Assembly (NCBI GenBank): GCA_029939945.1
Contig: JAOZRX010000014.1
Location: 1 to 36,553, forward strand
Source: Candidatus Izemoplasma sp.
GTDB lineage: Bacteria > Bacillota_I > Bacilli_A > Izemoplasmatales > Izemoplasmataceae
Reading direction: 5' to 3'
Length of the DNA: 36,553 bases
The position numbers and the translations under genes were made by a program. Within the stretch, counting starts at the first letter, position 1. Every line of letters starts with the position of its first letter. A model generated the notes under the pieces. It ran no database searches. It was given only the letters and a program-made list of their open reading frames with translations, and was not told the DNA's origin. Of the stretch, positions 29,179 through 33,928 are shown piece by piece.

Positions 29179-30480
29179 ATGATTAAGAAATCAAGACAAG
29201 TAAGAGACTACAAGTTACTTGATAAAACACTACCTACATTAAGATATGTAAATCCTGAGGAAGTATTTATTCATTTACAAAATAATCGTTGTAAAACTTA
29301 CGATATATTTGTAAAAGAAGGAGATCATGTTTTACTAGGAGAAGTTATCGGAATGCGTCATGGGGGATTCTTTGAACAACCAGTTCACGCTACAGTTAGT
29401 GGGACAGTTGGTAAAATAAGTAAGAAATTCCACCGTACTGGTCGTAAAGTAGATACTGTTCATATTAAAAATGACTTCTTAGATACGATGCATGAAAGTG
29501 TAGTAGATAGATCAATTGAAGAAATAGAGAAACTTACTCAAGATGAAATTGTGGAAATAGTAAAAGAAAAAGGATTAGTAGGACTTGGAGGAAGTGGATT
29601 TCCAACATACATTAAGTTAGCTACTAAGGAAAAGATTGATACCGTTGTTATAAACGCAGTTGAATGTGAACCTTATTTAAGTTCTGATTATCGTATGATT
29701 TTAGAACATCCAGGAGAAATACTAGAAGGTCTAAAATATATTATGCAAGCATTAAATGCAAAAAAGGGACTTATTGCTATTAAATCTAAGAAGACACCTT
29801 TATATCAAATCTTAAGCCAATTACTAAATACAAGATATAAAGATTTGAATGTTGAAGTTGCAAAACTTGGGAATCATTATCCTCAAGGTTGGGAAGTTGA
29901 AGTTTTCAAATGGGCTCTTGGTATTGAAATACCTCATGGACAACTTCCAATGAAGTATGGTGTAATCGGATTTAACGTTACTACTGCTTATGGAATACAT
30001 AGTGCAATAAGACATAATTTACCTGTTTATGAAAGACATTTCACAGTAAATGGAGATGCTGTTAAATTCCCGCAAAATATAAGAGTAAGAGTAGGGACTT
30101 CAGTTAAAAAATTAATTGAAATAAGTGATGGATATGATACATTACAAAAAGAAGTAATAGTTGTGATGGGTGGACCGATGATGGGTACATCTACTGTAAG
30201 TGACGATGTTATTGTTTCTAAAACAACTACATCAGTTTTAATATTTAAAAACGTTGAATACAAAGAAGAACCTTGTGTAAGATGCGGAAGTTGTGTATAT
30301 AGTTGTCCCGCTCATTTAGAACCAGTTCAAATAATGAATGCAGTGAAACGAAATGATAAAGATGTAATGAAAGGTCTTGAAGCTTTTAAATGTATTGAGT
30401 GTGGATTATGTACATATGTTTGTACAAGTAAAATCCATGTTACTGATTACATTAGAAAAGCTAAAAGATTGATTGGGTGA
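29179..30480 (+). CDS. rnfC: Rnf complex subunit C (NADH-binding, two 4Fe-4S)
   Basis: A 433-residue peripheral subunit of the Rnf ferredoxin:NAD+ oxidoreductase, carrying FMN, the NAD(H) site and two iron-sulfur clusters. The N-terminal biotinyl/barrel-like domain (HATVSGTVGKISKK) is followed by GLVGLGGSGFPTYIKL, the FMN/NAD-binding region, and INAVECEPYLSSDYR. Two ferredoxin motifs end the protein: C366, C369, C372, C376 (CVRCGSCVYSCP) and C405, C408, C411, C415 (CIECGLCTYVC). RnfC opens the rnfCDGEA-x-B operon, the clostridial order. It has AGAGGA 9 bases before its start and ends 4 bases before rnfD. Confidence 0.96.
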   Translation: MIKKSRQVRDYKLLDKTLPTLRYVNPEEVFIHLQNNRCKTYDIFVKEGDHVLLGEVIGMRHGGFFEQPVHATVSGTVGKISKKFHRTGRKVDTVHIKNDFLDTMHESVVDRSIEEIEKLTQDEIVEIVKEKGLVGLGGSGFPTYIKLATKEKIDTVVINAVECEPYLSSDYRMILEHPGEILEGLKYIMQALNAKKGLIAIKSKKTPLYQILSQLLNTRYKDLNVEVAKLGNHYPQGWEVEVFKWALGIEIPHGQLPMKYGVIGFNVTTAYGIHSAIRHNLPVYERHFTVNGDAVKFPQNIRVRVGTSVKKLIEISDGYDTLQKEVIVVMGGPMMGTSTVSDDVIVSKTTTSVLIFKNVEYKEEPCVRCGSCVYSCPAHLEPVQIMNAVKRNDKDVMKGLEAFKCIECGLCTYVCTSKIHVTDYIRKAKRLIG

Positions 30481-30484
30481 TAAT

Positions 30485-31549
30485 ATGGAAAATACATTAC
30501 CGAAAATAATAAGGAAAACTAGTCCTTATTTAAAAAGACCAAAAGCAAGCGTTACTAGAATGATGCGAGATGTTACAATTGCCTTGCTTCCTGTAACAGC
30601 ATTTGCCATTTACAAGTTTGGAATGTCTGCTGTTGTAATAATTGTTTTAAGCATTTTATCAATGGCAGTTACAGAATATATTTATTATCAAATAGTTGAT
30701 AAACTAGATGGTGATAAATTTAAATTTAAGAATAAAAATTTCACATTATATAACTTTAGTGTAATTACGAGTGGATTAATATATTCATTAACTTTACCTG
30801 ATAATACACCAGCTTTTGTTGTTGTTATTGGTGCAGCATTTGGGATATTCTTTGGTAAATTAATCTTTGGTGGATTAGGACAAAATGTTTTTAATCCTGC
30901 AGCATTAGGACGAGTATTCATTGTTGTAAGTTTTGGAACGATGATGACTTATGATGTTGATACAGTTGCTGGTGCAACTGCACTTGGAGTATTGAATAAT
31001 GATGTATTCAATATTGCAGTATTAGAAAACTTTAAATTAATGAACTTATTCACAGGAATTGGTATTCCTGGTAGTATTGGAGAAATGAGTGCAATATTAC
31101 TAATTCTTGGTGGAGTATATTTAGCATTTAGAACAAGCTTTGAAGTTAGAATTCCTTTAGTTTATGTAGGAACTGTAGCTTTGCTTGCTGGAGCTGTTGC
31201 TATATATAAAGATCTTGGTATTTGGTATCCAGTATTTCATGTACTAAGCGGTGGATTATTATTTGGGGCTATCTATATGGCAACTGATCCAATAACCTCC
31301 CCAATTACTAAAGGTGGAAGGATCTATTTTGCTTTCGCTCTAGGGGTTCTAACATTCTTTATTAGATTGTTTGGGGCTTATCCTGAAGGTGTAGTATTCA
31401 GTATTTTAATTATGAATATGTTTGTTACTTCATTTGATTATTATAAATGGACTAATCAACAAATTACTAAAAGACAAAAACTTATCTTTACAATTGTCGT
31501 GTTAGTCACGATTGGTATTACGATTGTAGGTGTTAGTTATGTTGGATAA
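30485..31549 (+). CDS. rnfD: Rnf complex subunit D (membrane, covalent FMN)
   Basis: A 354-residue integral membrane subunit with about ten spans. ITSGLIYSLTLPDNTPAFVV and FGGLGQNVFNPAALGRVF are conserved RnfD/NqrB segments. AGATAL (residues 162-167) holds T165, the position of phosphodiester-linked FMN in the family; the usual leading Ser is Ala here. The late MATDPITSPITKGGRI motif is also present. I start it at ATG 30485, with GGGTGAT just before; an in-frame TTG at 30473 lies in the rnfC end and has no separate ribosome binding site. It overlaps the rnfG start by 11 bases. FMN attachment needs an ApbE flavin transferase, which is not in the window. Confidence 0.95.
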   Translation: MENTLPKIIRKTSPYLKRPKASVTRMMRDVTIALLPVTAFAIYKFGMSAVVIIVLSILSMAVTEYIYYQIVDKLDGDKFKFKNKNFTLYNFSVITSGLIYSLTLPDNTPAFVVVIGAAFGIFFGKLIFGGLGQNVFNPAALGRVFIVVSFGTMMTYDVDTVAGATALGVLNNDVFNIAVLENFKLMNLFTGIGIPGSIGEMSAILLILGGVYLAFRTSFEVRIPLVYVGTVALLAGAVAIYKDLGIWYPVFHVLSGGLLFGAIYMATDPITSPITKGGRIYFAFALGVLTFFIRLFGAYPEGVVFSILIMNMFVTSFDYYKWTNQQITKRQKLIFTIVVLVTIGITIVGVSYVG

Positions 31550-32069
31550 ATTAAAAATAGCATTAGTGCTAGTAGTAATTGGAGCACTAAGTGGAATTAT
31601 AATATATGGAATTAATGAACTAACATATGATACTATCCTTGAAAATAGAATCGAACAAGAAAGAGGTTATTATAAAGATTTATTTAACCTTGAACAAGAT
31701 GATATTATAACAACAAGTGAACCTATATTATTAGATGATGGACTTGATGAAGAATTAATATTGTATGATGCAGATGATAATATTATCGGATATATTTATA
31801 AATCAACATTAAAGAATAACTATGGAGATGTAACGGTATTAGTTGGAATAACAACTGATGGTATAATATCAAATGCTGTAATATCTTCTACAACAAACAC
31901 TGTAACTTTCGTACAAACAATTAAATCTAAATATATTGGTAACTTTGCTAATCAAGATGTTACTGATATCCAAATAGATAGTAGAACTGGAGCAACATAT
32001 ACTTATACATCTGTTGTAGATGTAGTAACTTATGCTTCAGAGTACTATTTAGAAAGTAGAGGTGAATAA
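31539..32069 (+). CDS. rnfG: Rnf complex subunit G (covalent FMN)
   Basis: A 176-residue subunit with one N-terminal membrane span (residues 6-25) and an outward-facing FMN domain. The flavin attachment motif is RTGATYT at 149-155, with T155 as the expected modified residue; this differs slightly from the common SGATxT (Thr for Ser at 150). The protein is short and acidic, as in other RnfG. ATG 31539 is chosen because AGGTG (31528-31532) is 6 bases away; GTG 31530 lies in that site. It is translated out of phase with the end of rnfD. It passes electrons between the RnfD and RnfA/E parts across the membrane. Confidence 0.93.
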   Translation: MLDKLKIALVLVVIGALSGIIIYGINELTYDTILENRIEQERGYYKDLFNLEQDDIITTSEPILLDDGLDEELILYDADDNIIGYIYKSTLKNNYGDVTVLVGITTDGIISNAVISSTTNTVTFVQTIKSKYIGNFANQDVTDIQIDSRTGATYTYTSVVDVVTYASEYYLESRGE

Positions 32070-32071
32070 AG

Positions 32072-32842
32072 ATGAGTAAAAAAGAAAACTTTTTAAAAGG
32101 ATTCTTAAAAGAAAATCCAATCTTTGTTTTCCTTCTAGGAATGTGTCCAGCACTTGCTGTAACAGCTACATTTGAAACAAGTTTAGGAATGGGATTACTA
32201 GTTGTATTTGTTTTAACTAGTAGTAACATTGTTGTAAGTGCAGTTAAGAAATGGATTCCTCATGATGTTAGAACACCAGCTTATATCGTAATCATTGCAA
32301 CATTTGTAACAGTTGTTGGAATGGTAACTGAAGCTTATGCACTTGATTTATATCTTGCTCTTGGTGTTTTTATTCCTTTAATAGTAGTTAACTGTTTAAT
32401 ACTAGGTCGAGCTGAAGCATTTGCTTCTAAGAATACTGTCGTAGATAGCGCAATTGACGGTATAGGAATGGGACTCGGGTTTACTTTCGCATTAGTAGTT
32501 ATCGGAATACTAAGGGAGTTCTTAGCAACTGGTGGAATTATGTATGGAGTGTATCTTCCTTTCTTTGTAGATGCACCTATAACAATCTTTAGTTTAGATA
32601 TGATAATTAATTTATTTACTAATGGATTTGTAATATCTGATTATGGATTAAAAGTATTTAGTCTTCCTCCTGGTGCGTTTATCGCTCTTGGAATAATACT
32701 TGCAGTATTCCAATTTAAAAAAGCAAGAAAAGATAGAAAAGCAGCAATTGCAAAAATGGAAAGAATTGCAGAACTGAAAAGAGTTGCACTTGAAAAGAAA
32801 AAACAAGCAGCACTAAAATTAGCAAAGGCAGGTGGTAAATAA
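32072..32842 (+). CDS. rnfE: Rnf complex subunit E (membrane, Fe-S ligand pair)
   Basis: A 256-residue, six-span subunit homologous to NqrD. C25 (GMCPALAV) and C108 (VVNCLILGRAEAFA) are the pair that, with two Cys of RnfA, hold an iron-sulfur centre within the membrane in the Rnf/Nqr family. The last 42 residues (from about 215) form a Lys/Ala-rich helical tail containing KKARKDRKAAIAKMERI and KKKQAALKLAKAGGK, longer than the E. coli-type protein of about 230 residues; its role is unknown and it would face the cytoplasm. The start is 2 bases after the rnfG stop, with AGAGGTGAATAAAG before it. It shares one base with the rnfA start (TAATG). Confidence 0.95.
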   Translation: MSKKENFLKGFLKENPIFVFLLGMCPALAVTATFETSLGMGLLVVFVLTSSNIVVSAVKKWIPHDVRTPAYIVIIATFVTVVGMVTEAYALDLYLALGVFIPLIVVNCLILGRAEAFASKNTVVDSAIDGIGMGLGFTFALVVIGILREFLATGGIMYGVYLPFFVDAPITIFSLDMIINLFTNGFVISDYGLKVFSLPPGAFIALGIILAVFQFKKARKDRKAAIAKMERIAELKRVALEKKKQAALKLAKAGGK

Positions 32843-33447
32843 TGAGTTTTGCTATATTCGCAACAGCAATAATATCAGCTATGCTGATCAATAATGTAAT
32901 CTTAATGCAATTCCTCGGAATTTGTCCTTTCCTTGGTGTTAGTAAAAAAAGTAGTGCAGCAATAGGAATGAGTGCAGCAGTATTATTCGTTATGGTAATA
33001 GCTTCTGCAGTAACTTACACTTTGTATGATTTAGTATTATATCAATATGGTATACCATATATATCTACAATTGCTTTTATCTTAGTAATTGCTAGTTTAG
33101 TACAATTTGTTGAAATGTTTATTAAGAAAACGAGTAAATCTTTATATAAAAGTTTAGGTATTTATTTACCATTAATTACAACTAACTGTGCAATTTTAGG
33201 TGTAAGTGAAGGCAATATTACAAATATCTGGACTAAAACAATTCCTTACTGGGAAGGTTTACTAATTGCTGTAACTACAGCACTAGGAACTGGGTTAGGA
33301 TTTGGATTAATTATCTTCGCATTTTCATCAATTAGAGAAAAACTTGAAGCTAGTAATGTACCTGATGCTTGGAAAGGTGTTCCTATTAGCTTAGTAGTTG
33401 CTGGAATTATGAGTTTAGCATTCTTAGGACTAGCAGGTATAATTTAA
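32842..33447 (+). CDS. rnfA: Rnf complex subunit A (membrane, Fe-S ligand pair)
   Basis: A 201-residue, six-span subunit homologous to NqrE. C28 (LGICPFLGVSKK) and C116 (TTNCAILGVS) mirror the Cys pair of RnfE in inverted topology, together forming the membrane iron-sulfur site. FGLIIFAFSSIREKL and VPDAWKGVPISLVVAGIMSLAF close the protein as in other RnfA. The first base of its ATG is the last base of the rnfE stop, and its own stop shares a base with the start of the 54-codon gene that follows. It is normal in length and all key residues are present. Confidence 0.96.
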   Translation: MSFAIFATAIISAMLINNVILMQFLGICPFLGVSKKSSAAIGMSAAVLFVMVIASAVTYTLYDLVLYQYGIPYISTIAFILVIASLVQFVEMFIKKTSKSLYKSLGIYLPLITTNCAILGVSEGNITNIWTKTIPYWEGLLIAVTTALGTGLGFGLIIFAFSSIREKLEASNVPDAWKGVPISLVVAGIMSLAFLGLAGII

Positions 33448-33611
33448 TGGAGTTCTTAGTGCCGGTTTTGCTTATCGGTGGGTTAGTATCATTATATATT
33501 GGGAGTTACATGCTTAACAAAAGAATCCCAATCCCAGAAGAATGTAAAGTTATAGTTGATGAAGAGAAATGCACTACATGTCATATTTCTACATGTAGCA
33601 ACAAGAAGTAG
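33447..33611 (+). CDS. Cys-rich single-span membrane mini-protein in the rnf operon
   Basis: A 54-residue gene lies between rnfA and rnfB. ATG 33447 overlaps the rnfA stop by one base (TAATG), and TAG ends at 33611. Residues 3-22 (FLVPVLLIGGLVSLYIGSYM) form one membrane span, followed by a basic turn (LNKR) and a soluble tail with four Cys: C33, C42, C45, C50. CTTCHISTC has the same CxxCxxxxC spacing as CGACGFPGC in the neighbouring RnfB. The plan (one span, short cysteine tail, at the end of the operon) recalls NqrM/DUF539, a maturation factor for the membrane iron site in the related Na+-NQR. Complete coupling to rnfA supports a real gene. No family was recognised with certainty; metal binding or delivery is an inference. 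Confidence 0.8.
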   Translation: MEFLVPVLLIGGLVSLYIGSYMLNKRIPIPEECKVIVDEEKCTTCHISTCSNKK

Positions 33612-33622
33612 GAGGAGTAAAT

Positions 33623-33928
33623 ATGACAGCCTTAATTACATTATCAATAATGGGACTAGTTTTAGGACTAGGATTAGCTTATGCAGCTGAAATATTAAAA
33701 GTTGAAGTTGATGAAAGATTAGAAGCAGTAACAAATTTCCTTCCTGGACTAAATTGTGGAGCTTGTGGGTTCCCTGGTTGTGCTGGATTTGCTGAAGGAG
33801 TTATGGATGGAGACGTTGAAAAATTATCTGATTGTAAGCCTGGTAAGGATGTACATTATGATCCGATTATAGAATATTTAGCAGAACATCCTAATCCAGA
33901 TGGAACATTAGTTAAAATTTCAAAATAG
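33623..33928 (+). CDS. rnfB: Short Rnf subunit B with only the first Fe-S domain
   Basis: A 101-residue RnfB-type protein. Residues 1-20 are the membrane anchor, and residues 35-80 are the Fes domain with C45, C48, C53 and C71 (LNCGACGFPGC then SDCKPG), binding one 4Fe-4S cluster. Usual RnfB proteins of about 190-330 residues continue with two or more ferredoxin-like 4Fe-4S motifs; these are absent. The frame ends cleanly at TAG 33926-33928, which lies inside a strong terminator, and no lost coding remnant follows, so this does not look like a fresh frameshift. AGGAGGAG precedes ATG 33623. How ferredoxin docks without these clusters is open; RnfC or another protein may take over. Confidence 0.88.
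   Translation: MTALITLSIMGLVLGLGLAYAAEILKVEVDERLEAVTNFLPGLNCGACGFPGCAGFAEGVMDGDVEKLSDCKPGKDVHYDPIIEYLAEHPNPDGTLVKISK

Follow-up and report, generated by a model that had tools for sequence, protein, structure and literature searches.

A membrane-buried [2Fe-2S] cluster at RnfA/E has been reported only from the Rnf and Nqr complexes (PMC11889175), and in Rnf it receives electrons from the mobile Fes domain of RnfB (PMC12174285, PMC11889175). In Nqr, the iron centre of NqrD/E (equivalent to RnfE/A) requires NqrM (PMC12174285); no Rnf counterpart of NqrM was found in the literature searched. Other proteins have been linked to Rnf: RnfH of Azotobacter vinelandii Rnf1 was reported to lack both a cofactor and homologs in other complexes (PMC12174285), and RseC (PF04246) is needed for autotrophy via Rnf in C. 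ljungdahlii (PMC9124969). Short forms of RnfB are already known, as the T. maritima protein reportedly comprises nothing but the FdI domain (PMC9588780). Outside Rnf, FeoB-associated Cys peptides, which exist as free proteins or form the C-terminal domain of FeoB, carry an iron-binding-type motif (PMC8749426).

The window analysed here, a stretch of 36,553 nucleotides from Candidatus Izemoplasma sp. (contig JAOZRX010000014.1), contains an rnf operon arranged as rnfC-D-G-E-A-P54-rnfB, with a phosphoglucomutase gene upstream and a pyruvate phosphate dikinase gene downstream:
29179..30480, plus strand: rnfC (TIGR01945)
30473..31549, plus strand: rnfD (PF03116, TIGR01946), with the ATG at 30485 as probable start
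31530..32069, plus strand: rnfG, FMN-binding (PF04205, TIGR01947)
32072..32842, plus strand: rnfE (PF02508, PRK12405), with a Lys/Ala-rich C-terminal tail without Cys
32842..33447, plus strand: rnfA (PF02508, TIGR01943)
33447..33611, plus strand: P54 (the name used here), 54 codons plus stop, translation MEFLVPVLLIGGLVSLYIGSYMLNKRIPIPEECKVIVDEEKCTTCHISTCSNKK
33623..33928, plus strand: mini-RnfB, 101 aa (PF04060, 46.7 bits; AlphaFold2 pLDDT 92)

The ATG of P54 overlaps the rnfA stop codon by one base (taATG), and ahead of the rnfB gene that follows lies a strong ribosome site (aggaggag). Within the window's own family, 41 of 49 genomes had homologs at E<=1, though chance may explain the weakest matches; in the wider group, 113 of 392 genomes had them at good E-values, and five more genomes listed as carriers were dropped as chance helix-only matches. 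The members gathered comprised 142 distinct sequences with Rnf context and 26 with other surroundings. They share a single membrane helix, the motif N-[KR]-x-T-P-x-P, in most cases an upstream Cys, and finally C-x2-C-x4-C, corresponding in the window protein to N24-K-x-x-P-x-P30, C33 and C42-x2-C45-x4-C50. AlphaFold2 predicted one long helix spanning residues 4-26 (mean pLDDT 82). Across the 142 Rnf-context members, P30, C42, C45 and C50 are about invariant and N24 is kept in 92%, while C33 is kept in 82%, several near relatives of the window having lost it; 26 members have three Cys only. Lys/Arg residues follow rather than precede the helix in 130 of 142 members, and the Cys side is therefore predicted to be cytoplasmic. 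Minimal versions of 35-40 aa still keep the helix and the Cys; such forms occur in family f12 (e.g. MIGFVIVLLLFILTFILYRVNKTKEKCKGCDLCQL), where visual inspection of position, helix and Cys, rather than profile score, identified them. With a median dN/dS of 0.10 (60 close pairs among relatives), the conservation, the predicted helix and the bias of basic residues reject a chance ORF, confirming P54 as a genuine gene. The preliminary description of this DNA had the gene, its coupling to rnfA, its membrane span and the positions of four Cys right, and the frame and the last three of these Cys are indeed conserved in relatives; the first, C33, proved not to be invariant.

Placement within the operon is similarly stable. 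P54 lies inside the rnf operon in 45 of 47 named loci, for which the order rnfC-D-G-E-A-P54-rnfB was read only as far as the contigs extend, and its start falls within -8 to +6 nt of the rnfA stop in 123 of 140 cases. Nearly all of the 142 Rnf-context members sit between rnfA and a short rnfB. Being encoded in the rnf operon and conserved alongside it, P54 has the hallmarks of an accessory subunit and, like RnfH, would stand beyond the six standard ones. The family spans kin of Izemoplasma, Anaeroplasma, Erysipelotrichales, Acholeplasma and Haloplasma in the host class, with named carriers including Candidatus Izimaplasma/Izemoplasma, Anaeroplasma bactoclasticum, Faecalicoccus pleomorphus, Solobacterium, Paracholeplasma vituli and a Haloplasmataceae MAG. 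The neighbouring mini-RnfB consists of an N-terminal helix and the Fes [4Fe-4S] domain, whose four Cys are invariant in its family; the ferredoxin-like input domains are absent, and the family profile aligns with residues 4-90 of the 274-aa C. tetanomorphum RnfB.

Each of the 392 genomes was searched for P54, the Fes domain and RnfA/E, and misses were inspected by hand. A P54-type protein was found in 121 of 121 genomes with a short-RnfB Rnf, short meaning about 90-135 aa or, in Haloplasmataceae, 183-187 aa with two Fes domains. P54 was found in none of the four genomes with full-length RnfB (G275, G373, G380, G399), none of the 11 with RnfA/E-like proteins but without RnfB, and none of the 256 without RnfA/E. 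Among the 11 RnfB-less genomes, four are NQR-type with an NqrF-like protein (G064, G100, G279, G296), three share a genus with most of the NQR-type ones, and four give weak, divergent RnfA/E matches. Since the surveyed genomes are related, a Fisher test of this co-occurrence overstates independence; within each of five families (f9, f10, f12, f13, f16), both presence and absence of P54 occur, in agreement with Rnf type. In a tree of RnfA and RnfE, short RnfB and P54 fall in one common lineage, and their link may therefore be one of descent rather than function.

In 11 of the 121 short-RnfB genomes, P54 is located outside the operon yet retained (G158, G189, G229, G248, G254, G338, G339, G351, G353, G362, G409). 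In families f2 and f3, the relocated gene lies between the phosphoglucomutase and uracil-DNA glycosylase genes (a placement seen at L167, L181, L195, L306 and L307), which is the spot where relatives of the window hold the rnf operon; in f21, f22 and f25 it adjoins a dCMP deaminase gene. Extra Rnf-like operons in Izemoplasmataceae, including one in the window genome, have no P54 between rnfA and rnfB. This second operon of the window genome (L239 1326-7649, G000:C6) encodes a 794-aa RnfG-like ORF and a short rnfB after rnfA, with no P54 between them. Paralogs outside Rnf adjoin genes for Cu-type ATPases, PAP2/rhomboid proteins and dCMP deaminase; at L031, L047 and L048, they stand next to a copper-type P-ATPase and a two-component system. 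A search of a plasmid collection for P54 gave no match.

Where P54 is absent, a similar module may be found on RnfE. In all four full-length-RnfB genomes of the class, the last RnfE helix is followed by a Cys tail, for example at L263, where it reads ...AIQNKLKLPSATNIEHSSTLECGGDCTHCHGITCFEEYKKEAQKK; the loci with such tails (C-x2-C-x4/5-C and similar) and no P54 include L260, L263, L264 and L265. Outside the class, 7 of 11 fetched Rnf loci bear such a tail, namely Subdoligranulum (L335) and six human-gut contigs (L329-L332, L334, L338); this proportion is not a frequency, as some loci were chosen because their match extended into the RnfE tail. Acetoanaerobium, Vescimonas, Monoglobus and the gut contig L333 (a single Cys) have neither an RnfE Cys tail nor P54. 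Among 175 RnfE entries, all from loci with an in-operon P54 and with some genomes entered twice, none bears a Cys tail. Like P54, the tail joins a helix to basic residues, often Pro, and C-x2-C-x4/5-C past the last helix; unlike P54, it is fused to a core subunit. Wherever RnfB is fully readable, the tail goes with its full-length form. The two profiles match at 88.7%, a value reached by none of 60 permuted controls, the match being limited to the 15-column Cys motif. As P54 and the RnfE tail were never found together in the examined loci, where the tail was seen only in the absence of P54, the Cys module appears to be either fused to RnfE or free.

We considered what such a module might do. 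In the reading we favour, to which we give about an even chance, P54 would be a dedicated micro-subunit, or a tightly bound assembly partner, of the short-RnfB type of Rnf. Its helix would pack onto the RnfA/RnfE core and place the cytoplasmic C-x2-C-x4-C, often with a fourth Cys, by the mouth of the RnfA/E membrane [2Fe-2S] cluster, in the place where other Rnf complexes bear the RnfE Cys tail. This site would most likely bind iron or an Fe-S cluster, and P54 might load, guard or repair the cluster chain leading from the RnfB Fes domain to RnfA/E, functioning like NqrM or the FeoB Cys tail, homology to NqrM aside. The preliminary description had likewise suggested iron handling near RnfA/RnfE, and a metal or Fe-S role there is favoured because other complexes bear a like Cys motif as RnfE tail. 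We count for the subunit reading the order rnfE-rnfA-P54-rnfB, the co-occurrence, the retention after relocation and the exclusion of the RnfE tail, as well as the Cu-type ATPase neighbours of non-Rnf paralogs, the PF12669 matches described below and the persistence of helix and Cys in minimal forms.

Several observations count against a general need for such a protein in Rnf. The four loci outside the class with neither P54 nor an RnfE tail belong here, as does E. coli, in which rsxA abuts rsxB. NQR-type operons of the class keep all four RnfA/E cluster Cys and have no P54; together with the several outside Rnf lacking either form, they count against a universal maturation role. The dispensability of C33, the confinement of the likeness between P54 and the RnfE tail to the Cys motif and the extra Rnf-like operons without P54 also weigh against the subunit reading. 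A broader version, in which a cytoplasmic Cys site at RnfE, either fused or as a free form of 35-80 aa, builds or repairs the [2Fe-2S] cluster without NqrM, is one we advance tentatively, with the balance somewhat against it; the same holds for its corollary that the two forms are interchangeable and the free form obligatory in a whole bacterial class.

Among the alternatives, P54 could carry an Fe-S cluster and form, together with mini-RnfB, a split input module that relays electrons from ferredoxin to the Fes cluster and stands in for the missing ferredoxin-like domains of RnfB. Its strict tracking of short RnfB, its absence alongside full-length RnfB and its position next to rnfB as well as rnfA fit this view. 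The spacing C42-x2-C45-x4-C50 equals that of the first three Fes Cys of RnfB (C45-x2-C48-x4-C53), a correspondence the preliminary description had rightly pointed out, and hhalign aligned P54 with mini-RnfB at 86-87%, with helix and Cys in register and none of 40 permuted controls as high. The Fes (FdI) domain shares with P54 the N-terminal helix and C-x2-C-x4-C, but it is a folded domain, bears the signature C-G-x-C-G and has its fourth Cys some 18 residues further on; this fourth Cys is absent from P54, and PF04060 gave no match on P54. Since the comparison involves a single helix and three or four Cys, descent is inseparable from convergence on C-x2-C-x4-C, so that the earlier proposal of a split-off part of RnfB holds at the level of the motif and no further. 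Replacement of lost RnfB domains was once the favoured explanation, and was demoted when RnfE tails were seen in complexes with full-length RnfB, where a simple substitute for RnfB domains would not be expected. As the three-Cys members and the extra short-RnfB operons without their own P54 also speak against a relay, we regard it as unlikely.

A purely structural or redox-sensing accessory, which would stabilise the complex or sense its state through a disulfide or metal switch and deliver neither cofactor nor electrons, seems to us quite unlikely. It would account for the dispensable C33, the weak constraint beyond the motif, the retention of P54 upon relocation and the extra Rnf operons that do without it, but not readily for three Cys invariant in almost all members, even in 35-aa versions, nor for their predicted position in the reducing cytoplasm.

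P54 might also be a general Cys membrane peptide of the PF12669 (FeoB_associated) type, trapped in the rnf operon and serving general iron handling rather than Rnf. PF12669 was matched at E<=1 by 33 of 87 members (best E 1.2e-4), and not at E<=10 by the window protein itself. FeoB-associated proteins (here L209-L215, L217, L221 and L238) resemble P54 in their single helix, basic residues, C-x2-C...C tail and fused-or-free pattern, but their partner is FeoB rather than Rnf and the N-K-x-T-P-x-P motif is absent. Profiles scored 81-92%, across only 13-22 columns, suggesting a weak relationship. While the genomic neighbours of the non-Rnf paralogs would suit a general peptide, the absence of P54 from all 256 genomes without RnfA/E, and its persistence in 11 of 11 surveyed genomes in which it was relocated and Rnf remained, make this explanation highly unlikely.

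Finally, descent from NqrM, with P54 as an iron deliverer for the RnfA/E [2Fe-2S] cluster, has a next to negligible chance of being right: both are small single-span Cys proteins encoded with homologous complexes, of the same size class and with basic residues and Cys after the helix, and hhalign sets these elements roughly in register, but a search with PF04400 (DUF539) of the window genome and of five relatives, of which three are close and P54-bearing, brought up nothing at E<=10, and comparison with 12 real NqrM sequences, obtained from plasmid records with an NqrM-like sequence as bait, scored 27-49%, equalled or bettered by 7 of 40 column-permuted controls. NqrM further differs in its GSCGG signature, its Cys spacing and its setting, being encoded with the nqr operon and NqrF rather than in rnfCDGEA-P54-rnfB. 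The NqrM-like kinship proposed in the preliminary description is thus not supported at sequence level, leaving that interpretation partly supported overall. Viral contigs scanned for NqrM and RnfE yielded no relatives.

P54 was also considered as a replacement for RseC. The latter is likewise a small membrane protein linked to Rnf, but it has two helices and is a proposed regulator. The class has no convincing RseC (2 of 392 genomes were just above the cut-off), whether P54 is present or absent, and this candidate was rejected. NCBIfam scans of P54 members assigned no family, and neither Foldseek nor a comparison with solved-structure sequences returned anything useful. In the open-access literature searched, a scope that most subscription papers fall outside, we found no account of P54 or the RnfE Cys tail, nor of a swap between the two or of the joint occurrence of P54 and short RnfB; the family appears undescribed so far, in line with the preliminary remark that no Rnf subunit of this kind was known. 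With P54, the Rnf operons of many bacteria from gut and sediment gain a small gene that had gone unannotated. We rate P54 as a Cys micro-partner in a redox complex that pumps ions, not as a categorically new system. Together with the Cys tails, it suggests that a metal-handling part of Rnf has been overlooked, and as a micro-subunit that swaps with such a tail it is a concrete, testable candidate for the Rnf counterpart of NqrM, with named residues for mutation.

Some further loci were recorded in passing. The tandem double Fes RnfB of Haloplasmataceae (183-187 aa; L162 3925-4488, minus strand, and G261:C151 near 30919-31278) showed no further recognisable ferredoxin domain. In another family of the class, NQR-type operons (L283, L287, L293, L294, L296, L297) encode an NqrF-like protein of 358-362 aa after the RnfE/A-like subunits, without P54. 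Stretches of rnf operons also occur in human-gut entries labelled "bacteriophage" (MT835478, MT835964, MT837537, MT835735 and others), which look like bacterial contigs filed as phage.
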